A DNA stretch of 64,000 nt from the NCBI RefSeq assembly GCF_000003815.2, contig NW_023365936.1:1-64000 (forward strand), read 5' to 3'. The position numbers were made by a program, and so were the translations under genes. Each line of letters starts with the position of its first letter. Positions within the stretch are counted from its first letter, which is position 1. The DNA comes from Branchiostoma floridae. Lineage: Eukaryota; Chordata; Leptocardii; Amphioxiformes; Branchiostomatidae. Shown here piece by piece: positions 12,237-63,000 of the stretch. The notes below the pieces were generated by a model. That model was given only the letters and a program-made list of their open reading frames with translations. It did not search any database and was not told where the DNA came from.

Positions 12237-15100
12237 TGTCTGTTTAAGTAAAGTATGTGTCTGTCTGTGTGTGTGTGTGTGCGTGTATGTGTCTAGCTGC
12301 GTGTGTGTGTGTATGTGTCTAGCTGTGTGTGTGTGTATGTGTCTAGCTGCGTGTGTGTCGGTATGTGTCTAGCTGCGTGTATCGTATGTGGGCGTGGGTG
12401 CGTCTGTGTGAAAGTGTGATTGCGTTTGCATGTCACGATGTGTTTGTGTGTTGGTTTCTGCACACGCACGCGTCTGTGTGTAAGTTTAATGTGAGTGCAA
12501 AACTACATTGCACGGATCACTACAGTAATTTTGTCTTGCAGCGACTAGTCTTGATCTACTATCCAGTGATTCAGTCATTCTGATCCAACAAAAGCACATG
12601 TCACTCAACAGGGCATGATCTCAATGAAAATAACATCACCTCTGCCATCCATCTGTCAACCACACGGTTTGGTCCACGGTGTGTGGATGCAGGGATAGGG
12701 ATGAGTTTCATATATACATATTGTACGTCGTACGCCACGACGCCATTATGATTAAAATTCAGTACAGATTTAACATGCAATGTTCTTGATAAACAGATAT
12801 TTCCAGATAGGGCAATTGAGAAGGAGATTCAAAAGTTTGAAGTGTTCTGTGACAACAACGATGATGGTTGCACATGGGAAGGACTCCTACATCAACTTCA
12901 GGTAAATGATTCTTTAATGTTGTAAATGTTTATATTATTCTTGAATGATAGAGATTGCCCTTTGATTCGAAGTTTTAATTCTTTCTGGGTGTTGAATGGT
13001 ATTAACGTCTCTAGCTGTTGTCGATGTGATGTCAACTGCTGGTGTTTTATAGTTACAATTTTGATTGTACAGGCTCACCGTGGTGAGTGTGAGTATGAGA
13101 AGATTGCCTGCATCCACAAAGACTGCGGGGAGAGAATCCCAAGAAAGGACCTTTCCAAACATCTTACAGACACCTGTGCCTTACGACCTAGTGCCTGTCA
13201 GTGGTGTAAGGAATCCCTCCCATTCAAGGACATTGCGGTAAGTCTTGACAAATGATATTTCTTTACAGAATAATTGAGCAGGGTGTTGAGTTAAACAAGC
13301 ATTACTAAAAATATTCCATATGTTTTATCTTCAAAAAGAGGTTTATCTTGTTTGACCAAAACAACTTTTGTGATGAAATATTTTTCATGATAATCAGAAA
13401 CACCAGGAGTCGTGCCCCATGGCCCCTGCCCGGTGTAAGTGGTGCGGTAAGAAGGGTCTGACTCGCTCACAGCTGCAGGACCATCAACATCCGCAGACTG
13501 GAGACTGTCCCAACATGAAACTGCCGTGTCACTTCGAACCAGTCGGATGTCAGGAGCAGGTAAGAGACTATTTCCCACACAAAAGCCACAATACTAAGAA
13601 CCCATCGATTTTGTCATCGTCATTGGCCCTGTGGTCATGCTTGACTTATATGACTTTTGCATTCTGTAGCTGGAGAGGAAGCAACATGGCGACCACCAAA
13701 AGAAAACCATCACAGCTCATCTCAACATGGTTCTGGCCATGCTCCTCCAACTGGCAACAAACGTGGAGGGGCTCCGAGATGAGGACGTGGAGGCACGCGA
13801 GAATATGCGAGCTGCCATTCCTCGACTGGACAAGACCCTCAAGGACCAAGTAAGCAAGATTACTCAGTTAGAGCAGAGGATTTCCGATTACCAGTCCGAA
13901 GGGGCAACGGCGTCAGGATCAAGCGGCTTGAAGGCACTGGAGAATCGAGTGGAACAGATTCGGGCAAAGGTTGAAGACGTGATTAAGAAACTTGCAGCAT
14001 GGGAACCCAGAGTCGGCACGTTTGAAGGGATCGTCGCCGTTCTCAATCGTGAGATCGAGAAGTGCAGCTCCCAGATGGAGGCATACGAACGACAACGTCG
14101 TCAGGACAGGGAGATCATCGAGACTCTGGAGAGGAAGGTTAGGTCTCTGGAAAGGATCATCGCCCTGAAGGACGTTGCCCTCGCGGAACAAGACCTCCGA
14201 ATCCAGACCCTCGAATTGACCAGCTACGATGGCATCCTGACATGGAAAATTGCAGACTTTACACGTAAGCGTCACGACGCCATCACGGGAAAGACGGCAA
14301 GTTTCTACTCGCCATGTTTCTTCACCAGCCGTACAGGGTACAAGATGTGCGCCCGGATCTACCTGAACGGAGACGGGATGGGGAAGGGCACTCATGTCAG
14401 CCTGTTTTTCGTCGTCATGAGGGGGCACTACGATGGACTTCTGCGCTGGCCTTTCAGGCAAAAGGTCAGTTGATATCAACTATCGTAATCATGTTCTTAA
14501 TCGGTCAACCTTCAGCGTTACACCCGATCTGTACAGCAGGCTATAAGATCATTATGCCTAGTGTAACAATGAACTTCCGTTTAAAGCTTATCAGTACCCA
14601 CATTCATACTGACCATTCGAAAAGCTTGCCAAATGGTCCTTTTGTTTGTGCTGCCATGAAAAACACGTTTATTGAGTTGTTATAACTATTATATTCAGAT
14701 TAAAGAAGAGAACACGAAGGAAAGAAAGATATGTAATGCCTGAGTAGCTTTATACTTTTTAATGCTACAGTTTTTCTTTATTCCTTTCGTTCTGAATCAA
14801 AGATTCATCTTAGATTTTATAGGCTGTTTCTCCTTTCTTCTTATTGATATCTCAGTAACAATTATTCTGCACCAGGTAACCTTCATGCTTTTGGACCAGA
14901 ACAACCGAGAACACGTGATCGACGCGTTCCGTCCTGACCCGACCAGCTCGTCCTTCCAGCGGCCCACCAGTGACATGAACATCGCCAGTGGATGTCCGCT
15001 CTTCGTGCCGCTCAGTCAACTAGACAGCAGCAGCCACGCCTATGTTAGGGACGACACAATGTTCCTAAGGGTCATAGTAGACACCGCTGATCTCAACTGA
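5159..15100 (+). CDS. TRAF: TRAF-family adaptor / RING protein, copy A (complete, 7 coding exons)
   Basis: Coding exons: 5159-5301, 10766-10829, 12797-12901, 13073-13237, 13398-13559, 13670-14464, 14876-15100. Joined they give 1659 nt, that is 552 aa plus stop, with GT/AG borders throughout. The RING finger is at about residues 19-61 (C19, C22, C34, H36, C39, C42, then C56/C61 from exon 2). TRAF-type zinc fingers occupy about 70-213, a long coiled coil about 250-396, and the MATH/TRAF-C domain 399-552. The receptor-peptide residues known in TRAF2 are present: ARIYLNGDG near 441-449 and the serine finger TSSSFQRP from 501. The role by family is a trimeric cytoplasmic adaptor and possible E3 linking TNF/IL-1/Toll-type receptors to NF-kappaB and JNK. 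The start ATG follows a noncoding leader with its own acceptor at 5100. The MATH domain most resembles TRAF1/TRAF2; exact orthology is not decided. Confidence 0.93.
7240..7330. repeat. array of about 10-bp GTTGCGGCAC units
   Basis: About seven tandem, slightly varying copies of a decamer of the type GTTGCGGCAC or GTTGGGGCAC occur here. The same heptamer GCGGCAC recurs near both ends of the enclosing TIR element (6295-6345, 9690-9810) and in the MITE at 37703. This looks like a transposase-binding or subterminal repeat array (inference). The 100-codon minus-strand frame over it is a by-product. Confidence 0.55.
7540..8460. repeat. tandem array of units containing ATTATGCAAAT / ATTTGCATAAT
   Basis: At least six units of roughly 120-130 bp each contain a near-palindromic core: an AATTATGCAAAT-type motif followed about 10 bp later by ATTTGCATAAT. 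Examples are near 7675, 7800, 8045, 8162, 8285 and 8416. The cores match the POU octamer ATGCAAAT. Such arrays also occur in the 3' parts of some retroelements, and which applies here is unknown. No coding frame is present. Confidence 0.6.
8560..8850. repeat. two to three units with a GCCGCTAGGGG core, retroelement-tail-like
   Basis: The phrase CCTGCAGTTCC..AAGCCGCTAGGGGGCCCAAA at about 8562 recurs as CTGCAGTACCG..GGCCGCTAGGGGACCCAAA at about 8696, a period near 134 bp. The unit ends with a TTCTAGAGTTATGGTGGTC-type phrase. A related arrangement is seen at 22.70-22.93 kb. The 114-codon open frame across it is not gene-like. This is probably the 3' tail of a non-LTR element (inference). Confidence 0.45.
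9028..9570. repeat. two-copy direct tandem duplication, about 280 bp
   Basis: Copy 1 (9028-9310) and copy 2 (9311-about 9570) both begin AACCCGGAAGTGATTTCC and are nearly identical. Copy 2 lacks about 21-24 bp around 9232-9258 (the TATATGTGCCCTGGTACCTG stretch). The duplication is very young by identity and lies inside the large TIR element. Confidence 0.85.
10294..10740. mobile_element. inverted-repeat structure resembling a Penelope-like element terminus
   Basis: The outer arms of about 48 bp (10294-10341 and 10650-10697) are near-perfect inverted repeats. Nested inside is a perfect 27-bp palindrome pair (10344-10370 and 10443-10469). Between the arms lies the string CTGAAGAAGG...CCGAAACGTCGG followed by AATAAAG, a layout I associate with Penelope-like element termini. 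No reverse transcriptase frame is present, so this is a remnant or non-autonomous copy within intron 1 of TRAF copy A, ending just before exon 2. Confidence 0.5.
10570..10602 (+). ncRNA. candidate hammerhead-ribozyme core
   Basis: CTGAAGA (10570-10576) is followed by a 6-bp stem GGTGAC/GTCACC (10578-10583 and 10589-10594) with loop AGACG, then GAAAC (10595-10599) and GTC. This is the conserved order CUGANGA, stem II, GAAA of hammerhead ribozymes, which are documented in Penelope-like elements. Stems I and III are not convincingly assigned by eye, so self-cleavage is unproven. Confidence 0.4.
11083..11436. repeat. (GT)n-rich microsatellite
   Basis: Long imperfect GT dinucleotide tract with GC and GTAT interruptions in intron 2 of TRAF copy A. 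It produces long low-complexity open frames on both strands (Val-Cys and Thr-His repeats), which are artefacts. Confidence 0.95.
12178..12375. repeat. (GT)n microsatellite with GTGTCTAGCTGC higher-order units
   Basis: A pure GT run is followed by about four copies of a roughly 30-bp unit, GTGTGTGTATGTGTCTAGCT(GC), between 12285 and 12375. It lies in intron 2 of TRAF copy A, with no gene. Confidence 0.9.
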
Positions 15101-21742: not shown

Positions 21743-24700
21743 ATGCCTGGCTACTCGGTGAAACTGAAGGGGGAGGGTACCGACCCGAAGTACTGCTGTT
21801 CCTGCTGTGCTCTACTGCTGAATGAGCCAAGACAAACATCCTGTGGACATCGGTACTGTAAATCATGTTTGGAAGACCTGAATGGGTGAGTAGTGTATGG
21901 GTAGGGTAGAGTGAGTCGTTCGGTCAGGTTGGGAGTGCAGAATTCAAGTAAGAACGAAGACGTATCAACGTTTTAACATGTATTGTTCTGTGTTTAACAT
22001 GTATGAATGTATTGTTGTGTGATGAATAGAGCATACTTGTAGCTATTCCCCTGAATAAGACATAGCAAATGCAGTAATCATGTAACATACAGCGTTATAT
22101 ACCACCTATGTCAAACATTATTGATCAAAAATACTTTCTACACACCTTAAAGCAGTGTTTTCCGTTAGCATCTTAAGTCTTCACTTTCCCACAGGGCCAG
22201 TGCAGGACATCTCACATGTAAGGTACCATCATGTGGTAACAGCATCAACATCGGAGAGGTAGGTCAATTGCCACTCAATTGCTAGGACTTATTGTCCTTG
22301 TAATTTGCATCGCATGTATAATGTATAATGCCTAATTATTGCAAGTGTGTGGTTTGAAGGGAAAACAAAGTCAGGTTCACTTAATTTTTTTCCTTCCAGA
22401 ACACTTTCAAGTCAATCATTATTTTTTTCTTAAAATCGAATTGTACCTGTCTGAAGCCAAAAATGACATGTTTATTCTTTTTTGGGGGGTGGTGGAGAAT
22501 ACTTGAATGAATAACGTCGACTTTGCAATATCCAATATGAATTTTGCTTTATAGAAATGTTAAAGTGCACCATATTAGATTGTTTGCAAATAACTTTGCA
22601 AACACATGGCGTGCACGCGCGCACATACACACACGCACACGCACACAGCCATGCACATACATACAAACACACACATGAATGAATGAATGCAGAAAATTTT
22701 ACTTCCAACTTTGAAGCTCCACTGGAACTCGCCGCTAAGAGGCCCATTGTCGCACTTGATCTTTCTTTTTGTAATCCCTACGCAAGCCCCAAATATCATG
22801 CAGAACCATCCATAACTTTTTACAGCCCGCTGCAGTACAAATGGAAAATGCTGAGGTGAACCACAACTACTACCCAAATACCAAATATCATGAAGATCCA
22901 TCAATAGCTTCTTGAGTTATGCTGTTGACCTACATACGTACAGACCCAAACCTCAGCCACTGCACCATGGCAGAACTGAAAACGTATCCTTCTTGGCGAA
23001 AGTAATAGGGCAAAGGAGGCTACGTTTTATTGGCCACTGCCGGAGAAAAAAGGTAGTACACAAACGTTTACTGCGGAACCCGAATGATTGAAACATGCCG
23101 TCGAAAACCGCACAAGACATGGTTATACATTTTGAAGCTTGAAGCTGACAGCGGTATGAACCTATACCAGCTACCTGCAGCGGTGGACAGCAGAGTGTTA
23201 TGGAGACAACGTACTAGTCATGGGAAGATTCCGAGCGAGCTTGACGAAGTGAGTGAGTTATGCAAATTAGGACTTAATCTGTGACCAAATTTAATTTCAT
23301 TACAAGTTCTAACTAATGAATTGTGAAGAAGGTGCATGCATCTCCCATCATCACACCCAGTGCATGCACATCACCACATGCACATGTACATACACATGTA
23401 CATACACATACTGTTGTTCGTCCGTCGAGTCGACGAGGACCGCTTTCGTCATCATCTTGTCCATTCAAGTAGTCAAATGAGTTCGCAGGTGGCTGTACAG
23501 CCCTATCTTCGCTCTGAAGTGTCTGTTGCAGTGCGGGCAGGGAAGTAAAGTGATGCTCGAGGGGGGGTTGGCTGCTCGTTCCTTCCTGGCCTGCCTCTTC
23601 TGCTGGGCAGTAGCTCTGCGTGTTCCCTCGTAGGTAACGGCACCCTTCTGGACTGCACGCCGCCACTGTGGCCGGTCACTGGCAAGATGCTCCCAGGAAT
23701 CAGTTTTTATATCAAAGGCTTTCAGGGATGCTTTAAGAGAGTCCTTGTAGCGTTTCTTCTGGCCACCGCGTAGCCGTGCACCTTCTTCAAGTTCACCATA
23801 GAACAGTTTTTTGGGCAGTCGGTGGTCTGGCATACGGACTAAATGTCCTGACCATCTGAGCTGGGACTGCATCAACATGGTGTAGATACTCGGCATACCT
23901 GCGCTGGTCAGTACCTCTGTGTCTGGAATTCTGTCTTGCCATTTGATGTTGAGAATCTTCCTAAGACGGGTGGTGTGGAAGTGATTGAGTCTTTTGGCAT
24001 GGCGTCGGTAGACTGTCCATGTTTCACATGCATACAAAAGTGTCGGAAGAACAATTGCTTTGTACACCTGCAGTTTTGTCTCCAGTCGAATTCCTCGCCT
24101 GTTCCAGACATTATCATGAAGTCTGCCAAAGGTAGCACTCGCTTTTGCAATCCTGGAATCCACTTCATCATCAATGTTAGCATTCTGGTTGAGGGTGCTG
24201 CCAAGGTAAGTGAATCTACTAACCACATTGAGTTTTTTGTTGTTTACTGTGATGGTTGGCTCCACATAGGGTTTTCCTGGAGCTGGTAGATGGAGCACTT
24301 CTGTTTTCTTTGTGCTAATTGTCAAGCCAAAGTTGTTACATCCGTTTGAGAAGTTGTCAACACTGTGCTGCATGCTGGGTTCTGAGCTGGCGTTTAGTGC
24401 ACAATCGTCGGCAAACAGAAAGTCCCTGACGATATCTGTCTGCACTTTGGTTTTGGCTTGTAATCTTCTAAGGTTGAACACTTTACCGTCTGTTCTGTAT
24501 CTGATGCCAATTCCCACATCTTCTCCACTGAATGCATCTGTTAACATCGCAGTAAACATGATACTGAACAAAGTGGGTGCTAGTACACAACCCTGCTTTA
24601 CACCATTTGTAACCGGGAATGGATCAGACAGTGCGTCACTGTCCCGCACATGAGCCTGCATGCCGTCATGGAACTGTCGCACAAGATTTATGAACTTCAT

Positions 24701-27561
24701 GGGGCATCCGTACTTGGCCAGTATCTTCCAGAGACCTTCCCTGCAGACTGAATCGAACGCTTTCGTCAGGTCTACATATGTGGAGAACAGGTCAGAGTTC
24801 TGCTCCTGGCATTTTTCTTGCAGCTGTCTTGCAGCGAAGATCATGTCAGTGGTTCCTCTGTCTTTCCGAAATCCACATTGACTCTCTGGAAGTAGTCCTT
24901 GATCAAGATGTATTATGAGGCGATTGAGGAGGATCCTAGCAAGTGTCTTCCCTGCGACAGAGAGTAGGGATATACCTCTGTGGTTGTCGCAGACCTGTCG
25001 GTTGCCTTTGCGTTTGTACAGGTGTATGATTGTTGCATCTTTAAAGTCCTGAGGAATTGACTCTCGTTCCCAAATGATGGTGAACAGTTGATGAAGCTTA
25101 TCAATCACAGCTGTGCCGCCTTCTTTGTAGATTTCAGCAGGGATAGAGTCCTGACCTGGAGCCTTCCCACTTGAGAGTTGGCCTACAGCCTTATGTGTTT
25201 CAGCCGGGCTTGGGGGTTCTGCAAGTGCCTCATTTATGGGTACTTGTGGAAGACGACTTATTGCTTCTTCATTTATTGATGATGGTCGATTTAGTACACT
25301 GTCAAAGTGTTCTGCCCATCGCTTCAGAATATCATCTTTGTCAGTGATTAACGTGTTACCATCAGCACTGAGCAGAGGAGATAGACCTGTTGATGATGGT
25401 CCAAAAATCTCTTTCAGGCCGTCATAGAATTTCTTCAGATTGTGTTTGTCCGCATAGCCTTGGATTTCTACGGCTTTATCCATTAGCCATGTGTCTCGCA
25501 TCTGTCTCAGCTTTTCCTGGACTGTATTTCGTATATTAGTATACGCATCTTTCTTTGACATGTCCTTGGTGTCACTGAGATGCGCTCTATGCAGTCTGTG
25601 CTTCTCATTTAGCAGTCGTTGGATCTCATTGCAGTTGTCATCAAACCAGTCCTTGTGGTTTCTGCATGTTGGTCCCAATGTTTCCAAAGCAGCACTATGG
25701 ATGACATCTCTGAGGTTTTTCCAGCCAGTTTCTATGTCCTGTTCATCCAGTGAGACAGCCTCCAGCTTGTCTCTCAGCTTTTCTACAAGCAATTGTTTTG
25801 TTTCGGCATCCTTTAGCTTACTGGCATTTAGTTTTCTCGGCGGTTTCTTCCCCTGTGGACGCCTCTTGGGTTTGATACGAATGTTCAGTTTGGTAAGTAT
25901 AAGACGGTGATCAGTCCAATATTCAGCACCACACATAGATTTGGTAATCCGAACATCTTGTCTGTCTCTCTTCCTAACAATGGCATAATCAATCAAATGC
26001 CAGTGCTTAGATCTCGGGTGCATCCATGAGGTTTTGTTTCTGGTCGGAAGTTGAAATATGGTATTTGTTATAGTCAGTCCATATTCAGCACATGTCTGGA
26101 GGAGTAAGAGACCGTTGCTATTGCACTGGCCTATTCCGTGTTTTCCAATGACTCCCTCCCATGAGCTGCTGTCAGCACCCACTCGAGCGTTAAAGTCGCC
26201 AAGTACGACGAGTTTCTCCGCTTTGGGGACAGCAGCAATTACAGAATGGAGTGTCTCGTAGAACTCATCTTTCACCTCATCTGGATTTGTCATGGTTGGA
26301 GCATACGCACTAACAATGGTGAGATACTTCCTTCCAGATAACAAGGGAAGTTTCAATGTCATTAGTCTGTCATTAACACCTTTTGGAAGCCCTGCCAGCT
26401 TTCCTACCAGTGACGTCTTCACAGCAAAACCAACTCCTGCTTCACGTCTCTCTTCACTCGCCCTTCCACTCCAGAAGAACGTGTAGCCACATCCCCTTTC
26501 ACATAGCTCTCCTTCACCTGCCAACCGAGTTTCACTGAGGGCTGCTATGTCAATACCATAGCGAGCAAGTTCATTTGCAATGAGGGCTGTTCTTCTTTGG
26601 GGTCGGGAGTTTTCATTGTCCTGTAGGGTACGCACATTCCATGCGCCAAGAATAAGCGGAGTAGTTCTAATTTTCTTCTTCATTGTGTGTCTACCGCTAG
26701 GAAGGGGTTCCCTCCAGCCACGGCCTGCTGGTCGGGTAGTATGGAGCAGGCAATTTTTAGGGCACCTTTTCTAGCCCCTTCCCCAGGCTACGGGGGTGAG
26801 CAGTGCTGTCCTTAAGAGGGCTGCTCAGTCGTCCAGACGACTGCCGAATTCCACATCTGCTCCTATTCTGTGAAAAGCGACCATATAGCCTGGACCGCCC
26901 GTGTGCAGGTTTGCTGCTGCGGCTTCCAGTGCACCCACACCTGCCGCTCCGAGCTCACCCATCGCCACGGGAACTTTAAGTACAATCAGTAGACAATAGA
27001 CAACATAGATGACAAAGCGACTTGCGCAAAAAGAATTTGGTTTATAGTGTGGAGGAGTTGCGCACGTCGTCGACCACACTCTCTCGTCCGAAAACCATCT
27101 TGGTCCAGTGGCAAGACAGTGTCAAGACGGCTGGAGACGGAGTCGGATGCAGTGGATGACCGTGATTTCCTCATGTGTCCCATCACGCCCTTAACACTCC
27201 ACAGTGAGTTGCTGGATCACGCCTTCCTGCCCGTTGAGCCTGACTTTTGACTTCGTCCGCGCCCTCTGCCGGGATCCAGACTTCACATGCTGAGACAGAC
27301 ATATCCCTAATTCACCTGGGGTGTCTGGGGTGTCTGGTAGGGTCAGTACCTCTGCAGGGGGGGCCTGCCATGCCCTTTTAGGGTAGCTTTTCCTGCTTTG
27401 GCTCCCACCTGACACTCAGCTCTCACCTGTGGCTCCTAGAAGCTGTAGCATGCGCAGCGGCCACACCCCGGGCAACCGCTTTGGCAGGCGGGCTAAACCA
27501 GGTTGAGGGTAGCCGGGTTGGTCGCAAACCTCCCGGTGAATTAGGGGACATACACATGTAC

Positions 27562-27640
<79 letters not shown>

Positions 27641-30620
27641 TACTCAAGAAATTGATAAGGGTTTGATTGTATGTTCCGTCATAGTGTATGTTGTAAATGA
27701 CGCTAAGAACACGATTTACCTACAATGTTCTTGATAACAGCTGTTTCCAGATAGGGCCATTGAGAAGGAGATTCAAAAGTTTGAAGTGTTCTGTGACAAC
27801 AACGATGATGGTTGCACATGGGAGGGACGCCTACGACAGCTTCAGGTAAATGAATAAATTTTGCATGTTAGGCTGGATGATCCCTTGTTTCAAAGTTGTT
27901 TTTTTTTTTATTCCCAGTTGTGAACGTTGTAAACATTGTGATTAATAAAACCCCTGCCTCATAATCTTGATTCTACAGACCCATCTTGGTGAGTGTGAGT
28001 ATGAGAAGATCGCCTGCATCCACAAGGACTGCGGGGAGAGAATCCCAAGGAGGGACCTTTCCAAACATCTTACAGACATCTGTGCGCTCCGGGCTACTAC
28101 CTGCCAGTGGTGTAAGGAGTCTCACTCATTCAAGGATATTGTGGTAAGATTGGACGAATGATATTTCAGGGTGTTGAGTTGAAGAAACAATACTATGTCA
28201 TATGTTTTTCAATACTCAACCGGAGGTCTATATGTCTAAACACTACAATTTCAACACAACTTTTCTTTTTTTCATGATGATTAGAAACACCAGGAGTCGT
28301 GCCCCATGGCCCCTGCCCGGTGTAAGTGGTGCGGTAAGAAGGGTCTGACCCGCTCACAGCTGCAGGACCATCAACATCCGCAGACTGGAGACTGTCCCAA
28401 CATGAAACTGCCGTGTCACTTCGAACCAGTAGGATGTCAGGAAAAGGTAAAAAAAAAATTTAATATCTATAATCATCATCATCGGTCGACGTGATCGAAC
28501 ATGTTCGCACATGTCTACACACGACGGGGTTATACCGCCCTTACGGGGTGACATACCCTTTCGCTGGCTAATTACAAGACAGGGATGTGCCAGGTCTCCC
28601 TTCCATGTGAATGGTGTAAATCACCATGTGGCTAATGCGAGACAGAGGTTTGCCAGGCCTCCAGATAGTGGAGTGGAGAGGGTGATTTGAAGTGAATCAC
28701 CAACTACCGACAGAAGGATTTTCACCAACACACACCGCACCATCGCACGTGTGGGGGTTCTTTAACGTGCATGGGGTGTGGCTCTCCCCATACACGGGAC
28801 CTCCATCTAACGTCCTATACAAGGGAAGGCCCTAGCCGAAGCTAGGTACTCATTTTCACCAGAGTAAAGTGAGGAAAGCCGTGTAAAGTGCCTTTCCCAA
28901 GGGCACAAGATCGGTAACACGGCAGCCGGATTCGAACCCGCAACCTCTCGGTTCCGAGGCGAACACACTACCACTGTGCTACGCGGTCCAATATCTATGA
29001 TATTATACTTATGATTACATGTACTACGATGGCAAAGTTAATATTTTAAACAAAGCAAATACTACTACGTTTATTCAATCCAATTATCATTTCAGCTGGA
29101 AAAAAAGCAACATGGCGACCACCAGAAGAAGACCATCGAAGCTCATCTCAACATGGTTCTCACCATGCTCCTCCAACTGGCAACAAACGTGGAGGGGTAC
29201 CGGGACCAGGACATTGAGGCTCAAGAGAACATGCGCGTTGTCATTCCTCGACTGGACAAGAACATCAAAGACCAAGACAGCAAGATTACTCAGTTGGTGC
29301 AGAAGCTATCCGATTACCAGTCTGAGGGGGGGACGGCGTCAGAATCAAGCGGCTTGAAGGCGGCACTGGAGAATCGAGTTGAACAGATGCGGGCTAAAGT
29401 TGAAATCATGACGAAGAAGCTCGCCGCCTGGGAACCAAGCGTCGGCACGTTTGAGGGGATCGTCGCCGTTCTCAATCGTGAAATCGAAAAATGTAGCTCC
29501 CAGATGGAGACGCACGAACGACAACGTCGTCAGGACATCGAGATTCTGGAGAGGAAGGTCAGATCTCTGGAAAGGATCATCGCTCTGAAGGACGCTAGCG
29601 CTGTCCATGCGGAACAATGCCTCCTAAACCAGACAATGACCAGCTATGACGGCATCCTGACATGGAAGATCACAGACTTCACCCGTAAGCGCCACGACGC
29701 CATCACGGGGAAGACAACCTTTATCTACTCGCCGTATTTCTTCACCAGCCGTACAGGGTACAAGATGTGCGCCCGGATCTACCTGAACGGAGACGGGATG
29801 GGGAAGGGCACTCATGTCAGCCTGTTCTTCGTCCTGATGAGGGGGCACTTTGACAGGTTGCTGCGCTGGCCTTTTAGACAAAAGGTAATCTTATATCAAC
29901 TATAACGCTAGCATATTCTAGAATCTGAATTGGTCAACCGGTATACCCACCATCCAGAGTAATACACGATCTGTAAAGCTGGCTATATGATAGTGTTACA
30001 ACAAACGTCACGCCTAAACCATTCATGTCTTACTCTGACTGCCGTTTAAATCTTGGGTATTGCTGGCAATTCATCTTGCCAAAGTTCACTCATTTTGACC
30101 ATTTCTAAAAGCTTGCCAAATGGGCAAATATTTCCTTCAGACAGTATCTTCGTTCGTGCTTGAAAACCATACTTTTTGATTTCTTATGACAGCGTGGTTT
30201 TTTCAGAGTAAAGACAAGAATACGAAAGGTAGGAATTGAAATACCTGAAGAGTCGATGTTCTTTTTTAAGATTTAAATCGTCATGGTTTTAATGATACTT
30301 TTCTTTCGTTCTAATAATCTCATAGATTCACCTTAGATTTTGATATGCCAAGTTTCTTTCTTATTGATATCTCTGTAACATTTATTCTGCATCAGGTGAC
30401 CTTCCTGCTTCTGGACCTAAATAACCGAGAACACGTGATCGACGCGTTCCGTCCTAACCCGACCAGCTCGTCCTTCCAGCGGCCCACCAGTGACATGAAC
30501 ATCGCCAGTGGATGTCCGCTCTTCGTGCCGCACAGTCAGCTGGACAGCAGTAGCCATGCCTATGTCGACGAGGACACCATGTTCATCAGGGTCATAGTAG
30601 ACACCGCTGATCTTCATTAA
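21743..30620 (+). CDS. TRAF: TRAF-family adaptor / RING protein, copy B (complete, 7 coding exons)
   Basis: Exons: 21743-21885, 22195-22258, 27741-27845, 27979-28143, 28285-28446, 29096-29884, 30396-30620. These join to 1653 nt, 550 aa plus stop, with the same seven-exon, phase-identical structure as copy A. The only length change is in exon 6: one extra codon (KAALEN) and three missing in the coiled coil. RING (CCSCC..CGHRYCKSC), zinc fingers, coiled coil and MATH (ARIYLNGDG, TSSSFQRP) are intact. The amino-acid changes are concentrated in RING part 2, the coiled-coil/MATH junction (about 365-385) and the C-terminal DDT/EDT loop. The leader exon starts at 21688 after TGTCTTTAG, as in copy A. 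Intron 2 (5.5 kb) holds a LINE and intron 5 a SINE, both on the minus strand. The function is as for copy A, a cytoplasmic receptor adaptor for NF-kappaB/JNK signalling. The two copies are recent tandem paralogs. Confidence 0.93.
22975..23283 (+). mobile_element. 5'-truncated non-LTR retrotransposon fragment (RT C-terminus)
   Basis: In the plus frames one reads GRRRLRFIGHCRRKK..HKRLLRNP followed, after a frameshift at about 23080, by KTWLYILKLEADSG..LYQLPAAVDSRVLWR. This is the C-terminal thumb/tail pattern common in LINE polymerases (GHC.R..HK.LL.NP...GRP..T....L..D.G...EELP.AM.DR..WR). The fragment is broken by frameshift and stop, so it is a dead copy. It lies in intron 2 of TRAF copy B, just beside the intact LINE. 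Confidence 0.6.
23411..27547 (-). mobile_element. near-complete non-LTR (LINE) retrotransposon inserted in a microsatellite
   Basis: A 4.1-kb minus-strand element with a 5' leader of about 0.86 kb (27547-26684), one long ORF and a short 3' end. A 23-bp string (23388-23410, starting ACATACACATGTACATACAC) is repeated exactly at 27548-27570. This looks like a target-site duplication within a CACATA microsatellite. Because the target is a microsatellite, a tail of the element itself could mimic part of it. The insertion lies in intron 2 of TRAF copy B in antisense orientation. Confidence 0.8.
23465..26683 (-). CDS. LINE ORF2: APE-type endonuclease, reverse transcriptase, C2H2 finger (1072 aa, intact)
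   Basis: Single uninterrupted frame. The N-terminal exonuclease/endonuclease/phosphatase domain (about 10-270) shows WNVRT at 15-19, SETR with the catalytic Glu at 51, GDFNARVG at 162-169 and the terminal TDHRL at 257-261. The reverse transcriptase (about 500-800) shows YVDLTKAFD at 636-644, NGVKQGCVLAP at 693-703 and the catalytic FADD at 757-760. The last 24 residues form a C2H2-like finger (CPHC..F..L..HLRTH, 1049-1069). The enzyme nicks target DNA and primes reverse transcription of its own RNA. All catalytic motifs and the frame are preserved, so the copy is young. A C-terminal CCHH finger occurs in several LINE clades, and I do not assign the clade. Many plus-strand frames across it are shadows. 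Confidence 0.93.
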   Translation of the reverse strand: MKKKIRTTPLILGAWNVRTLQDNENSRPQRRTALIANELARYGIDIAALSETRLAGEGELCERGCGYTFFWSGRASEERREAGVGFAVKTSLVGKLAGLPKGVNDRLMTLKLPLLSGRKYLTIVSAYAPTMTNPDEVKDEFYETLHSVIAAVPKAEKLVVLGDFNARVGADSSSWEGVIGKHGIGQCNSNGLLLLQTCAEYGLTITNTIFQLPTRNKTSWMHPRSKHWHLIDYAIVRKRDRQDVRITKSMCGAEYWTDHRLILTKLNIRIKPKRRPQGKKPPRKLNASKLKDAETKQLLVEKLRDKLEAVSLDEQDIETGWKNLRDVIHSAALETLGPTCRNHKDWFDDNCNEIQRLLNEKHRLHRAHLSDTKDMSKKDAYTNIRNTVQEKLRQMRDTWLMDKAVEIQGYADKHNLKKFYDGLKEIFGPSSTGLSPLLSADGNTLITDKDDILKRWAEHFDSVLNRPSSINEEAISRLPQVPINEALAEPPSPAETHKAVGQLSSGKAPGQDSIPAEIYKEGGTAVIDKLHQLFTIIWERESIPQDFKDATIIHLYKRKGNRQVCDNHRGISLLSVAGKTLARILLNRLIIHLDQGLLPESQCGFRKDRGTTDMIFAARQLQEKCQEQNSDLFSTYVDLTKAFDSVCREGLWKILAKYGCPMKFINLVRQFHDGMQAHVRDSDALSDPFPVTNGVKQGCVLAPTLFSIMFTAMLTDAFSGEDVGIGIRYRTDGKVFNLRRLQAKTKVQTDIVRDFLFADDCALNASSEPSMQHSVDNFSNGCNNFGLTISTKKTEVLHLPAPGKPYVEPTITVNNKKLNVVSRFTYLGSTLNQNANIDDEVDSRIAKASATFGRLHDNVWNRRGIRLETKLQVYKAIVLPTLLYACETWTVYRRHAKRLNHFHTTRLRKILNIKWQDRIPDTEVLTSAGMPSIYTMLMQSQLRWSGHLVRMPDHRLPKKLFYGELEEGARLRGGQKKRYKDSLKASLKAFDIKTDSWEHLASDRPQWRRAVQKGAVTYEGTRRATAQQKRQARKERAANPPSSITLLPCPHCNRHFRAKIGLYSHLRTHLTT
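27548..27646. repeat. (CACATA)n microsatellite
   Basis: About 15 CACATA hexamers follow the right-hand target duplication of the LINE. The open frames on both strands (His-Ile and Met-Cys repeats) are artefacts. Confidence 0.95.
28480..28990 (-). mobile_element. tRNA-derived SINE, full-length copy in TRAF-B intron 5
   Basis: Read on the minus strand, the head begins GACCGCGTAGCACAGTGGTA, with a Pol III box A (TAGCACAGTGG). It continues to a perfect box B GGTTCGAATCC (complement of 28928-28938), then the conserved body (TGTGCCCTTGGGAAAGGCAC, AGGACGTTAGATGGAGGTCC, CACGTTAAAGAACCCCCACA). It ends near the GCGGTATAACCCCGTCGTGT and ATGATGATG tail. It is transcribable by Pol III in principle and is not a functional tRNA, because the 3' acceptor half is replaced. 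Relatives are at 31240 and 15125. Confidence 0.85.
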
Positions 30621-55218: not shown

Positions 55219-55375
55219 AGCATTCAGTTTTGACTAATAGGGTTCTGTGGTTCCTGTTTGGACCTTTGGAACGTTATACTATCCCGAGATGCTTTGCAGG
55301 GGGAAGGGTCTAGGTATAGAACACACCATGACATGTGTCCTCACTCGGGTTTCGACGCCCGACCAGAACGGAGTG

Positions 55376-58300
55376 ATGTCTTCCCCTCCCGTTCTGCGCG
55401 CGGACGCCACCCTGGTGAACCGTAGCATCCTCCCGCTTTTGCGGGAGTTGCGAAAGCCCGACGGTCCGCCTGAGGAGGACCAACTAGCACGGTTTGAGGC
55501 CGAGACACCTCTCTCGGCATACAATGCTGGGGAGATTGCGGCACGGATTGGGGCACTGACTGGGGAGCCCCCGGAGGATCTGATGGAGATGGCCGGCATG
55601 GACCCCAAGGCCGAGGCCTCCATGAGGAAGCTGGCACACTGCGCCATCCTGGCCGCCAATAACATCACGGCGGCCCAACCCATCAAGCAGGACAAGGCCA
55701 GCAGGGACGCCGCTCAGGCCGCCGTCGGTCTGGTCGAGGATGACCCGTCGACCTCCGAGGATGGCCCGTCGACCTCCGGCCTTGGTAGGAAAGACGGGAA
55801 GAGGCCAGCGACAGCCCCGCCGAAAGCCGCCCCTGGACGACAGGGGAAGAAGTCAAAGAGGGACCCGGCCAGCAGCTCTGAGTCGGACTCTGACGACGAT
55901 GACATGGAGGTTGGTTCTGATACTTGTCCTACACATTGTGCATGGTCGTTTGTTTGGAGGGATTCCCCCAATGGCGTAGGCCTAGGCGATCCTCCTATTT
56001 TCTTCAGGAGGGGTGGTAGTCCGCAGACCTCACGATATTTGATCACGATTCTGACGGAGTTTGACGGTACAATTGTGTGTTAAAATATTGTGTGACGACC
56101 CGGCCGAGGCCTGGATTTTGTGTGATATGCATATGGACATCCATGGTGATGGCTCTGTGTATGGGGCTTGAGACGGGAGGAAAATCTGTTCCCCCGCAAG
56201 CCGAGAATGAGTTATCCTTACGAGTGCGTGAGGCTAGGGCCTGCCATCGCGTAATACATGAGTTACGGAGCTTGAGACGGGAGGAAAATCTGTTCCCCCG
56301 CAAGCCGAGAATGAGTTATATTTGCGAGTTGCGTGAGGCTTGGGCCTGCACTCGTGTAATGCATGAGTTTACGGAGCTTGAGACGGGAGGCAAGTTGGTT
56401 CCCCCGCAAGCCGAGAATGAGTTATATTTGCGAGTTGCGTGAGGCTAGGGCCTGCACTCGTGTAATGCATGAGTTTACGGAGCTTGAGACGGGAGGGAAG
56501 TTTGGTCCCCCCGCAAGCCGAGAATGAGTTATATTTGCGAGTTGCGTGAGGCTAGGGCCTGCACTCGTGTAATGTTTGAGTTTTACGAAGCTTGAGAAGG
56601 GAGGGAAGTTTGTTCCCCCGCAAGCGGATATGTTGTATGCCCTACGAATCTTTTGTGTGGTGACACGCGACGAGAGTTCTTACCAAAGGGTGCCGCAGTA
56701 CACCAAGTTTAGCTGCAGGTAGAAGTTTCGATTGTGCTGTGGGTCGAGGTGGGCTCCCGACCGAACGAGTCGGGACCCTCCCACCCATGATGACGTCTCC
56801 GTTTTTCCATACCCCTAGTTTCCCCTCGCCTCTCGCTGATTATGCCGCTTTCTGAGTATGGTCAGTGATGGGCACTGAGCTTGTCTTGGACCCGACTTTG
56901 AGTGGGTCTTGCATGCTATCCCCAATGTCAGTAAATACGAGTTTGGCGGTACTTTGGAGAAGACGAAAAGTAATAATGCGTACCAGACGCTAGCACTCTC
57001 CCCGCACGATTGATGACTGTAGGAACGGTGTGACAGCAGCTCGCTATGGTAGAGAAGAGATAAAATCTAGTCGATCAGCCATTTGAGTGGGAACAGGCCC
57101 CAGGCTCAGTAGATAACAATGGAGGACAGTATGTTCCCCACGAAGTCGCCGGATGACACTTAATTGACACCATGTGACCACCGACCACACAGTGGTGGAG
57201 AGGTTAATGCGTGTAACGTGAGTGGCTAAACCTCTAAGATTGGACGTGTTTTGGGTTTTTGTAGGATGATGAGGTGGAGTGCCAGTTGCGGCGGGTGAAG
57301 CGGGTCTGTCAGGACCCGTTTATACATCTATATCCGGCCAGACTACAGAATGCCGTGAGGAGGCTGGTGAGGGCGGCCAAGGAGGCTGGCCACAAGAGGC
57401 TGAGTCGGTTTAAGGTGGTGCAGGGTTTCCTTGCGGGCACAGCCGCCAGCCCGACAATAGGAAAACACGTCGGGAAAATGCTCATGACGAAGGAGGAGCT
57501 CCGTTTCTCGGCGTCACAGGTGTATTTGTCTCTTTGTACAGCCACTACCAGCGGTGCCTCGTTTGTGGAAGCCCGCTGTTGCCTGCCCGGAGTGCCATCA
57601 CCCTAACGACCAGGATTTCAGGCATTGTCAAATGTGTAACTACGTACGTCGGCCGTGCCCGCCCCCTCGGAAGTGCGTTGAAATAGACAAGGCAGCGATA
57701 GATAATCGACTGGATGAGATTAACAGGATGGCGAAAAGCACGGATTACGGGAAGAAAAAGACTGCCTTGGAGAACGAGCTCGTGGATTTCTTAGGCAACT
57801 CGGCACCGCCGAAAGATCTAGTGACGGCGTCTCCAAAAGATGTCTGCGCTTTCCTGGTGTGGAAAGATAAGGGGGGAAAGACCGTCGTACACAAGGTGAA
57901 CTGTAAATATTTTGGGGAAAAACGAAAAACTGGGTGCGGCTGCCCAAAACGGCTGGCAGCAGGGACGGTTGACTCCATTATTGGTCAATTGAGAGCAATC
58001 TTTACCATATCTGGGCGGGGAAGAGACTGGACTGAGGCGGTTTGTGCAGGGAACCCCGCAGCGGCCCCCGTCGTGCGCCAATACCTAAAAGTGACGAAGG
58101 TGGAGCAGGCTAATGCCATGATACAACCAAAACAGGCGCAGCCCGTCTTTTTCGATAAACTCACGGCGGTCTGCACTCACATCACAAAAAAGATGAAAGA
58201 AAAAGAGGTGAGGCACACAACATTATTTGCTTTGGCCCGAGACCAGCTGCAGGCCTTCCTGAAGATCATGTTTTTCGCCGCAGATAGGGCGTCAGATTTA

Positions 58301-58678
58301 GCGCGTTGCAAATCAGAAGAGTTGGCGTGGTTGCCAAATGAGGAGGGCATTCTGTTCAACCACACGTTTGGAAAAACACTTAGAGATGGGACAGTAAACG
58401 CATTTCCGATCCTGGCAGGGAAAAACAAGTCAATGTGTCCGATACAAGGCCTCCGATTGTACATACGGGTAGCGCAGTCACTGAAGATTTGCCTCGATAA
58501 GGGGTATCTGTTTAGAGCGATCAACAAAGCACAGGAGGTAACCAACGATCCATTCACTTACGATGCGGCGCAGTACCGGTTCAAATCAGTTATTTTGCCA
58601 CTGTTCGGGCCTTTGGCCTTGGCCTCGATATATTGCCCATACCTCAACCCGAACAGAGGCAAAGTAACTTGGGATTGA
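55376..58678 (+). CDS. ALOG-domain tyrosine-recombinase-like protein (transposon-derived or domesticated)
   Basis: Proposed exons: 55376-55909 (178 codons), 57265-57519 (85 codons) and 57542-58678 (378 codons plus stop), all phase 0. Exon 1 is Pro/Glu-rich and ends in a basic then Ser/Asp-rich tail (SSSESDSDDDDME). Exon 3 carries, numbering from 57554, a zinc ribbon (CPEC 11-14, CQMC 25-28) and an ALOG-type DNA-binding domain at about 92-182 (H113, C117, C128, CP at 130-131, then GTVDSIIGQLRAIF). Next is a phage-integrase-like core with the box-I arginine (FFAADRASDL, R245) and the FGKTLRDG hairpin lysine. The protein stops before any recognisable box II HxxR or catalytic tyrosine. ALOG domains are known from integrases of DIRS1-type retroposons. 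No reverse transcriptase or methylase is seen nearby. Start alternatives: the frame is open from 55247. Confidence 0.7.
56160..56640 (+). repeat. five-copy minisatellite, about 105-bp unit, inside the recombinase-gene intron
   Basis: GGAGCTTGAGACGGGAGG starts units near 56164, 56268, 56373, 56479 and 56587. Each continues with GTTCCCCCGCAAGCCGAGAA, TGAGTTATATTTGCGAG and GGGCCTGCACTCGTGTAATG. Spacing grows from 103 to 108 bp. The repeat keeps one frame open over 120 codons (56077-56442), but this is not a gene. Confidence 0.9.
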
Positions 58679-58834
58679 GTACTGATGTAGATAACGTGGC
58701 CCAATCACCACACCTAATGGACACGAGGCACGCGCTATGGAGCCGAGACCCAACAATAATTCGTGCCCGTAGCCGGGCTCTATGCTAAATGCTGATTTCA
58801 ACAGCCTGTTTTATCTTAGCACTCGGTATACCGA

Positions 58835-58840
58835 TAATAA
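58835..58840 (+). terminator. poly(A) signal of the recombinase gene
   Basis: AATAAA, 157 bp after the stop codon at 58678, within a compact 3' UTR. It supports a Pol II transcript ending near 58860. Confidence 0.45.
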
Positions 58841-59139
58841 AAGTTACTTCAACACCCTCCACCATTGAATCATTACTATTTAGATAAGAGAAGACATGGT
58901 CTATATAGTTTCTCTAAAGCAGTCTACACAAGACATTGAGGAGACCAAACTAGCTAAATGTGTGCAAGTATTCTCTATCCTAATGATAACAATTGCCTTC
59001 CGTACAATGATAAGTAATACTTGCGATTTTCTACCAAACATTTATGATAAAACTGTTGGCGTTGAATATTGCTAGTTTTTCATTCATAACCAGGAAATAT
59101 AACAAACAAATAAACAATATTTCAGCAAGAACAGCAGCG

Positions 59140-60039: not shown

Positions 60040-63000
60040 TTAATTTAGGTCAGACGTGTCCACGATGATTTTTAAGAAAATCTCATCATCGCGTACGTAG
60101 GCATGGCGTGTACTCTCCAACTGACTGAGTGGCATGAACAGCGGACATCCACTGGCGATGTTCATATCACTTGTGGGGCGTTTGAAGGAAGAAGATGTTG
60201 GGTCGGGCCGGAACGCGTCGATCACGTGCTCACGGTTGTTCTGGTCAAGCAACATGAAGGTCACCCTCTGGCGGAATGGCCAGCGCAGCAGCCCGTCAAA
60301 GTGCCCCCTCATCAGGACGAAGAACAGAGAGATGTGGCTCCCCTTCCCCATGCCATCACCGTTCAGGTAGATCCGGGCGCACATCTTGTATCCTGTACGG
60401 CTGGTGTAGAAGCAGGGGGAGTAGATGGAGGTTGTCTTACCAGTGATGGCGTCGTGACGTTTTCTTGTGAAGTCTTGGATCTTCCACAGCAAGGTGGCAT
60501 CGTAGGATGTCATCTCCAGGGATGTGATACGGAGATCCTGCTCGGCAAGGGCCACGTCTTTGAGGGCGATGATTCGCTCTTGAGACTTCATCTTACGCTC
60601 AATGGACTCGATGATCTCTCGGTCCTGGCGTCGCTGTCGCTCGTATGCCTCGATGGTGGCCGAACACTTCTCAATCTCACGATTGAGGACAGCAACTATA
60701 TCCTCAAAAGTGGCGACCCTAGCCTCCATGGCTTCATGCTTATGCTCAATTTCTTCCATCATACTAGCAATCTGCTCCATTCTGTTCTCAAGCATCTTTA
60801 CAAGCTCTGAATCAGGCTCTGCCCCACCCCTCAGCTTCGATACTGCGGCTACCACGACGTTAAACATATCAGTCAAACTTTTAATGTGCACATCTTGCTG
60901 TTGCCCACCCTGCAGCCTACCGCCTGGTGTCTTCATCAGCGCTGATGGCTGTGATGAAGCTCCCTGTTGAAGTGGCCCCATGACTTGACCACTGACAGTC
61001 GTAGGAAAGTCCACCACGCCGCAGTTGGCACCACCCTGAAATAGATAACCGCACTCAATCCAGTTAAGGTGTATTGCCTGTTGATCTCGTATGGTGCGCG
61101 AATTCATATTCACTTTCATGTGAACAATAGTGTGAATAGCTCATGATCAGACACAGATTCAGTTTTTATCAATAGCTAGTCACGTGCACAGCTGCCAATT
61201 TTTATGTGTTATCTAGTAGCAAGCCGCAATAATCCCAAACTCACAGGTCTCCTGATGTGCCTTAATTGTCATTAAGATGTATTCAAAAAACATTCATTGG
61301 AAAGCTTTATTTATATACTGTTGTGCTTAGCCCTAGGCATAGGGCATGGGAACTTTTCACATTGATAGGATATGCGAAAGTCAAGTAACCTGAAATTTGG
61401 TATGTTGTCCATAGGGCACACATGTATCATGTATCACGGGACCTCCTCACATTTTTATGCACACCTATTTTGGGATTTTGGGATTGGCTATTCCAAAGCC
61501 TACAATGTGGGTTCCTGCGTCATTATTCGTCATGTCAAGTTCCTTTTCTCGTTAACATCCCGTTTTTCCTGTTTCGAAAATAATATTTTGATTTTAGTGT
61601 CTTTATATTTACTTACATCATACTGATGTACTTGGCCTTGTATGAGACTGATGAGGGTGTGATACTTGTCCAGCACAAGGCTCAGGTGATCCGCCTGGTG
61701 CTTGGCGATGTGGTCATTCAGTTTCTCACGTTCCAGCTGTGATGATGATGAATACATTTGGTAATCAGCAAAGTATGCAACCAAAACCCACACTGACAGA
61801 ATGGAAACAAAAAGCTACCATACCATGAGGAAAGTTTGTGATGTTATAGCTCATATCTGTGGCAGTTATAATATCTAACGAGCATTTTCGTACCCAATTG
61901 TGTTTTGACAACACATTCTGTACTTCAATACATTATGCATCGTAGTGACTTCAAGGCTTAATTTTCCAACATACCTTTGCAGGACATCCGACGATAGCAA
62001 ATGGGCAGGCTACTTTCAGCCTTCTGCAATCTCCAATGTTTTCATCCTGATGTTGCTGCAACTGTACAAAGGGACATTTATTGAATGTACATGTTCAAAT
62101 AACAAAGGAATAATCAATTACATGTAGTTAAGCTTGGGACTGTTTACAAATTGTGCAAACGCAAAAGGAGCAAGCAGGAGAGAGCTGGAACATAATTGCT
62201 GAATACCATTTCTGACTATGAGTATGAAGATGTATGTATGTATGTATGCATGCATATATGTATGTATGTATTTCTGACTTCTGAAAAAGAGCTTTCGAAT
62301 GCTCAGAAATACACATGTAGAGTTGAATCAGTACACTGACTTGACAAAAGGGAGTGTTGCTCATGGCATACTAACGTTTAATAGCTCAAAACTGATACAG
62401 AACTAATGGCTAAATGCCTAATATCTCACTGTAGCCTTTCTGTCAGGCAATTTTCAATCGTCATCATTGAAGTTTTGCTGGAGAAGTATAGCCAGAAGTT
62501 ATTTGGCAGATAGACAGCATTTCGTAGATGTTACTAAAACTGGATTGACCTAACCCACATACCTGAGCCCTTGGTATCTTCTTCTTCCCACAGAAGTCAC
62601 AGTTCACGGGGACTTGAGGGCAGATGAAAAGATGGTCCTGGGTAAGGTACAAAACAAGGTATTTCCTTGTATACCAAAGTATACCAAGAAAATTATGTAT
62701 CTTTTGCCATTCGTTAGAATATCTAACGTTCAAACTCAAAGGAAATTTCATCTAACATCAGAAGTAACAAAGCAAGTGGTAAAATATTACCTTTTCATCC
62801 TTCAGCAGTATTTCCTGTGCACAGTACTTGCACTTGACTTGTCTGACGGCACACTCCTTCTCCAGATGTGCAGCAAGATCCATTCTCATCACCTGTTTGC
62901 CACATCCCTGCTTCGGACATAAAATCAGGCCAAACTCACAGTTCTCCTGATGTTCCTGAATATATAGAATTATTCTTTATGAGACATATATGTTGCTGTC

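Follow-up and report, generated by a model that had tools for sequence, protein, structure and literature searches.

The locus

The stretch of DNA analysed here, referred to below as the window, comprises the first 64,000 nucleotides of contig NW_023365936.1 of the Branchiostoma floridae assembly GCF_000003815.2 (contig C378 in our genome search). On its forward strand, from 55277 to 58683, it holds what looks like a stand-alone gene for an ALOG domain protein. An earlier note on this DNA had described a spliced unit with a zinc ribbon, an ALOG module and an integrase-like core, with an acidic extension in front, its own poly(A) signal and no reverse transcriptase (RT) nearby, and had suggested either a solitary, Crypton-like tyrosine recombinase (YR) transposon or a domesticated DNA-binding regulator. 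Comparison with other copies in the genome indicates that this apparent gene is a dead, recently copied and internally deleted ALOG-type YR retrotransposon (Table 1).

The coding part is an open frame of 396 codons (57488-58678) that is matched by the Pfam profile ALOG_dom (E 5.9e-28, 98 bits, cut-off 26.6), and its residues from 57554 onward match the solved structure of the plant factor LSH3 (8p5q, E 3.8e-12), which bears out the ALOG assignment. The relation to tyrosine recombinases also stands; the frame has the ADRASDL motif, and a sister copy described below is matched by Phage_integrase. The N-terminal zinc ribbon is weak in the window copy (DZR, E 0.15), whereas one relative gives a better match (Zn_Ribbon_1 at 24.2 bits, E 2.7e-5, the cut-off of 25 being narrowly missed). 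No RT is found inside the element, and the catalytic core of the recombinase stops after ADRASDL, at about 58586, the H-x-x-R, H and Y being lost. The last ~30 residues of the frame come from the 3′ sequence of the element, which the frame runs into only by chance. A poly(A) signal exists (AATAAA at 58836-58841) but lies outside the element, and the acidic extension is the Gag leader exon with its acidic tail. The splicing signals are plausible, with a GT..AG leader intron and an acceptor preceded by a pyrimidine tract.

Table 1. Features of the ALOG-type YR retrotransposon copy, in window coordinates.
Feature	Position	Strand	Remarks
Internally deleted ALOG-type YR retrotransposon copy	55277..58683	+	Ends TACTATCCCG... 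/ ...GATTGAGTACT; both ends common to the C7 copy, flanks unrelated
Left terminal repeat A1	55277..55355	+	C7 carries A1 on the left and a second, identical repeat, A2, within its right end
Leader exon, N-terminal part of Gag, 178 codons	55376..55909	+	ATG to acidic tail; phase-0 donor GAG/GTTGGT at its end
Predicted leader intron, GT..AG	55910..57264	+	Donor and acceptor at matching place and phase in relatives
Minisatellite in leader intron, 106 bp x 4.3	56166..56625	+	Several further copies have other minisatellites in this intron
Start of gag exon 2 (gag-2), zinc-knuckle part deleted	57265..57511	+	82 aa without a difference (100%) from gag exon 2 of C7; ends at deletion junction
Junction of 3.1-kb deletion (gag end and all of RT-RNase H)	57512..57517	+	A few filler bases; compared base by base with C7
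AG of predicted phase-0 3′ splice site, ALOG-recombinase exon	57540..57541	+	Pyrimidine tract; AG aligned in 14/26 loci
Remaining zinc ribbon-ALOG-tyrosine recombinase exon	57542..58586	+	98% aa identity to C7 over query aa 1-349
ALOG domain	57734..58090	+	PF04852, E 5.9e-28
ADRASDL arginine box	58280..58300	+	From sequence; presumed region of the first catalytic Arg of the recombinase
Junction of 1.09-kb deletion (H-x-x-R, H, Y part of recombinase)	58585..58588	+	C7 frame continues through HGLR..HVGW..AERY
Right terminal repeat B2	58621..58683	+	C7 has B1 and B2

A sister copy and two deletions

When the genome of the animal (513 Mb in 431 contigs) was searched with the protein of the window frame, at least 61 matches were obtained, so that this is not a solitary gene. 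The best match apart from the frame itself, at C7:8992413-8993453 with 98% identity across query residues 1-349, belongs to a recombinase frame of 465 codons in a copy that we call C7 (locus L039). Four blocks of the window, 55276-55514, 55506-57511, 57516-58587 and 58587-58683, match this locus at 97.9, 98.1, 98.5 and 100% identity, and between them C7 is the longer by 1.02, 3.13 and 1.09 kb. The 3.13-kb segment of C7 holds the end of gag and a frame of 762 amino acids with matches to RVT_1 (E 5.3e-7) and RNase H (E 1.9e-6), both over their cut-offs. The 1.09-kb segment holds the catalytic end of the recombinase, with HGLR, HVGW and AERY, which we take to be the H-x-x-R, H and Y residues of the catalytic tetrad, and the C7 recombinase frame matches both ALOG (E 2.3e-28) and Phage_integrase (E 5e-6; 26.8 bits, just missing the cut-off of 27.1). 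Two deletions, during or after insertion, have taken the RT and the recombinase active site from the window copy, and the statement that no RT lies nearby is true of this copy because of the 3.1-kb deletion. The earlier note had named many near-identical copies with RT in the same unit as the mark of an ordinary DIRS element; one such copy, C7, was found, not many.

The 1.02-kb difference in the leader was rejected as a further deletion in the window, as C7 carries here, inside its leader exon (L039:1226-2244), an insertion with an 8-bp duplication, ACCTCTCT, and similar inverted ends, the two traits to which our label hAT-like refers; the insertion is rich in 31-bp palindromic repeats (TTCAGCACTGGAAA..GTGCTGA). 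We also rejected the idea that the window copy is a retrocopy of spliced RNA with the deletions as its introns, since the junctions lack GT..AG boundaries and filler bases stand at one of them. The leader, its donor and the acceptors of gag-2 and YR are all still present in the window copy, which makes a leader-zinc ribbon-ALOG product, ending in the ~30 terminal-element residues, conceivable, and such a DNA-binding fragment is the most that this copy might still be able to make. As a side observation, C7 is flanked on both sides (L039:2-997 and 9621-9996) by related tandem repeats of ~105 and ~101 bp, and the copy probably sits inside a satellite.

Build and relatives of the family

In C7 the terminal repeats are split direct repeats (L039: A1 993-1066, B1 9233-9298, A2 9292-9365 and B2 9562-9627), and the order A1 ... 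B1-A2 ... B2 was found in three of the four copies compared over their full length (C7, C16a and C16b). When C7 was compared with itself on both strands, inverted matches were seen only inside the hAT-like insertion. A classical DIRS1-like build, with inverted terminal repeats and an internal complementary region, was considered and set aside, as C7, C16a and C16b end in split direct repeats. The insertions of the window and C7 copies have TACT at both ends in common, lie in unrelated flanks and have no target duplication. Searches of the rest of the assembly with both flanks of the window copy (1.8 and 1.5 kb) yielded nothing beyond partial, repeat-like matches, and no second allele or empty site of the insertion was found.

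The relatives compared were C16a (L043), C8a (L044), C16b (L045), C2 (L056), C7b (L057), C8b (L058), C6 (L059), C3a, C3b, C19 and C17 (L060-L063), as well as C4 (L064), which was met through a leader match only. Their identity to the window recombinase is 65-70% (C16a, C8a, C2, C7b, both C3 copies and C17) or 43-46% (C16b, C6, C8b and C19), and complete relatives are ~8-9 kb long. RT lies upstream of the ALOG-recombinase also in three more distant copies, C16a, C8a and C16b, the RT frames of which are 68, 67 and 40% identical to that of C7, with RVT_1 under its cut-off in C16a (E 1.3e-5) and C16b (E 6.1e-5). As to the inactive adenine-methylase-like domain of ALOG-DIRS retrotransposons, the Pfam profiles used, with none for the DIRS methylase among them, matched nothing towards the C-terminus of the RT frames. 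At the end of gag-2 a C-x2-C-x4-H-x4-C motif can be read in C7, C16a, C8a, C2 and C7b and is deleted in the window copy; the corresponding zf-CCHC match in C7 (E 0.033) is under its cut-off. By its sequence organisation, then, the family is one of ALOG-type YR retrotransposons of PAT-like build. An isolated 3′ end of this element at G000:C12:22917294-22917745 (L041/L042) has the B-A repeat junction twice in tandem, perhaps the trace of a circle or of recombination at the junction.

Leader exon and splice donors

Leaders homologous to that of the window are found in three other copies at 37-42% identity, and phase-0 GAG/GT donors end the leader in eight loci (window, C7, C16a, C8a, C2, C7b, C6 and C4). 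The C16b leader, read by eye, appears to be in two parts with phase-0 junctions, and C8b gave no leader match. An AlphaFold model of the leader is weak (predicted local distance difference test, pLDDT, 64), and of 44 structural matches at E<=10 none reached E<=0.001, so that the fold indicates no function.

The minisatellite units of the leader introns are 106, 65, 61, 105/30 and 17 bp long in the window, C8a, C7b, C16b and C6, respectively. Repeats are visible by eye in C4, only scattered repeats were seen in C16a (by self-BLAST, not Tandem Repeats Finder), and C2 has none but a poly-A run. Units of the window and C8a fold into local hairpins, and the mean folding z score is lower inside the array than outside in five of the seven copies (window, C7, C8a, C6 and C16b, with array means of -0.90 to -0.22) and not lower in C16a and C7b. 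Folding windows with z below -2 are not clearly enriched in any of the seven arrays, and hairpin arrays as a general packaging signal are not established.

Predicted acceptors of the three downstream exons

Downstream of the leader, acceptor sequences in phase 0 recur in front of gag-2, RT and the ALOG-recombinase. They were read before gag-2 in all eight lineages that were read (window/C7, C16a, C8a, C2, C7b, C6, C16b and C8b) and before RT in ten of the 11 copies with an RT match (C7, C16a, C8a, C16b, C2, C7b, C8b, C3a, C3b and C19); the C17 piece gave no such match. For the recombinase an alignment of 30 rows was reduced to 26 loci by dropping two repeats (L029, the same as L017, and L038, the same as L016) and two loci without coverage of the site. 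An AG is aligned there in 14 of the 26, including eight of the nine loci with at least 63% identity and six of the 17 with at most 47%. Only this YR position is fixed by a protein alignment.

An AG-free stretch behind a pyrimidine tract is a signature of 3′ splice sites. Between -18 and -3 no AG occurs at the YR site (0/176, against 26/462 between -60 and -19, in 11 copies chosen for having the acceptor), at the RT site (0/144 against 23/378, nine copies) or at the gag-2 site (0/96 against 18/252, six copies). The near-duplicates L015, L020 and L027 were dropped from the YR count, in which the window and C7 were both kept, the RT count omits C3a (nearly identical to C7b), and C16b, omitted from the gag-2 count, gave 0/16 against 3/42 when counted separately. 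Pooled, the counts are 0/416 and 67/1,092 (Fisher p 4e-10, for copies that share ancestry and are not independent). The sequence between -60 and -21 of the YR site is unrelated among the 11 copies, with a median pairwise identity of 0.28 and none of 55 pairs above 0.7. Moreover, the acceptor AG is part of an in-frame stop codon before gag-2 in C7, C16a and C7b and before RT in C2, C7b, C3a and C3b, and therefore the conserved exon cannot begin at an upstream ATG in these copies. Downstream of the YR acceptor, near relatives have no ATG in the YR frame before codon 31, which falls within the zinc ribbon.

The gag-2 frames (five copies) and RT frames (four copies) end in stops of their own, with no shared donor evident by eye before them. 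A single constitutive messenger RNA for all three exons is therefore unlikely, and alternative splicing is the simplest reading.

A proposed single leader for three proteins

We propose that in the amphioxus ALOG-YR retrotransposons a single promoter serves three proteins, through alternative cis-splicing that starts from one phase-0 Gag leader, and that the unspliced RNA alone is replicated, a plan that we regard as likely. In one transcript the leader donor would be joined alternatively to the acceptor of gag-2, of RT-RNase H or of zinc ribbon-ALOG-YR, with predicted products of ~346-371 amino acids for Gag, ~925 for leader-RT and ~630 for leader-YR. All would share one N-terminus, a Gag handle that could gather them in the same particle, so that packaging of a Gag-Pol-like kind would be reached through splicing and not through frameshifting. 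The unspliced RNA would be reverse transcribed, and the cDNA, closed into a circle at the B-A junction, would be inserted by the recombinase at a TACT-like site with no duplication of the target.

Copying of spliced RNA would make the introns vanish. Among 43 leader matches no spliced retrocopy was recognised by the length of open frames, the longest being 368 amino acids (C8:12223323, a weak partial match, E 0.004) and the next 309; two of the matches were newly read, C4, which has the donor and a repeat-bearing intron, and C10, which is a truncated leader. A pattern for the leader/gag-2 junction, covering the window/C7 subfamily only, gave two matches with three mismatches each (C6:4494241 and C19:5149340), neither at a leader match. 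The absence of recognised spliced copies fits copying of unspliced RNA, as described for BARE (PMC3735527), although other subfamilies may have spliced Gag retrocopies.

Several observations weigh against this plan. At the aligned YR position L017 has AA, and 11 loci, none of them above 47% identity to the window protein, have neither AG nor AA (L022, L024, L025, L028, L030, L031 and L033-L037); in a laxer scan three of them (L025, L030 and L031) showed an acceptor-like site, in phase 0, no further than +18 bases away. C6 is without a clean phase-0 RT acceptor, and C8a, the fourth of the full-length copies, showed no split direct repeats. The leader donors are mediocre by a simple matrix, and stronger GT sites lie close by in C16a. 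In-frame ATG codons lie 12-14 codons upstream of the YR acceptor in the near relatives L013, L015 and L016 and upstream of it in some distant copies too, and in C7 one precedes the acceptor of the RT frame. The RT and gag-2 acceptors were picked by eye beside the start of homology, which favours clean tracts, and to this comes the choice of YR copies noted with the counts.

Alternative explanations

For the window copy taken by itself, the two readings of the earlier note have to be considered. A solitary, Crypton-like DNA transposon that never had an RT would agree with the absence of RT inside the window unit. However, the sister C7 agrees with the window copy in ends, leader, intron and YR; it has RT/RNase H and the catalytic end between those ends, its 3.1-kb RT segment lies exactly at the scarred junction of the window copy, and with RT in the relatives as well an RT-less family is refuted; we give this reading practically no weight. 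Domestication, in which the leader is spliced to zinc ribbon-ALOG, the catalytic part has been lost and the product serves the host as a DNA-binding protein, has these points in its favour: donor and YR acceptor are intact and in phase, the window and C7 differ in 2.0% of aligned bases in the intron and 0.9% in the YR frame, and the pooled ratio of non-synonymous to synonymous rates (dN/dS) against C7 is 0.17 (p 0.0013; nine synonymous and five non-synonymous changes). This low ratio does not discriminate, because selection on mobile ancestors before the insertion suffices to produce it. With 98% identity to another copy of the element, the insertion looks young, the H-x-x-R, H and Y are gone, the C-terminus is accidental and the poly(A) signal belongs to the flank, and a host function thus lacks support and seems very improbable to us.

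A rival of another kind accepts the same element but has its RT and YR frames expressed without splicing, by way of promoters inside the element, reinitiation or an internal ribosome entry site, with the pattern of AG and pyrimidines a by-product of intergenic composition. Splicing is a prediction from sequence, an ATG lies upstream of the YR frame in some copies and before the RT acceptor in C7, and the YR acceptor is missing in many distant copies, all of which such expression would accommodate. It would not account well for an aligned AG in phase 0 that is backed by a stretch free of AG in otherwise unrelated upstream sequence, and the acceptors placed within in-frame stops leave no room for an upstream start, so that we hold it to be unlikely, though worth keeping in mind. 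The explanation as a whole, namely a dead ALOG-YR copy of a family that splices one leader to three coding exons and uses the unspliced RNA as template, has in our estimate a probability of roughly three in four.

Other features of the window

A TRAF/MATH-domain frame lies at 60040-61140 on the reverse strand (Pfam TRAF-mep_MATH, 2.9e-47), and similar frames were seen by eye on the forward strand at 13670-14473 and 29042-29905; together they apparently form an array of TRAF-like genes. An open frame of 1101 codons on the reverse strand (23465-26770) resembles, by eye, an endonuclease-RT long interspersed element (LINE).

Relation to known systems and meaning

The ALOG domains of metazoans, B. 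floridae included, have been placed in DIRS1-type retroposons, all metazoan copies of which were inferred to be inactive and some of which were described with fragmented recombinases (Iyer and Aravind, 2012; PMC3537659). The family described here agrees with that account in its host and in having RT-RNase H followed by zinc ribbon-ALOG-tyrosine recombinase, and adds to it split direct repeats, recurring predicted phase-0 splice sites and single copies with long open RT and YR frames. The words intron, exon and splic- do not occur in the main text of that paper, nor do intron and splic- in Piednoel 2011 (PMC3266345). With PAT-like and Ngaro elements, as characterised in PMC4157794 and PMC3266345, the family shares A1-B1-A2-B2 repeats, a YR that follows RT in the same orientation and the lack of target duplication, but it differs in the ALOG-type N-terminal domain; PAT and Ngaro are themselves separated by a methyltransferase domain. 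A Ngaro-like element with split direct repeats has been reported near the amphioxus VCBP2/5 genes (PMC2632668).

A comparable strategy is that of copia and BARE1, which use a spliced subgenomic RNA for translation, replication of the unspliced RNA having been shown for BARE (PMC3735527). Their splicing yields a Gag-only RNA, whereas our proposal has one leader joined to three coding exons of the same phase, and they are long terminal repeat elements with a DDE integrase, whereas the amphioxus elements use a YR. Among the literature matches listed, as far as their titles and abstract openings go, there is no report of such a plan. Introns have been mentioned for some YR retrotransposons, and the novelty of the plan is provisional. 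If it is true, it would explain how introns are retained in an RT element, since unspliced RNA is copied, how all element proteins could reach one common particle, and why there is conservation of frames that lack a start codon.

The plant ALOG factors (LSH/G1), to which the window domain is related by sequence, as the LSH3 match given above indicates, are host genes without a recombinase (PMC3537659), whereas the frame studied here is part of a broken mobile element. What seemed to be a solo ALOG gene in a chordate is settled as a deletion derivative, which is a caution against calling such copies domesticated. It also indicates a route to a host gene, in that deletion of RT leaves a leader-ALOG product expressible through splice sites that already exist, and such a step is a plausible first one of the kind that may have led to the plant ALOG regulators.

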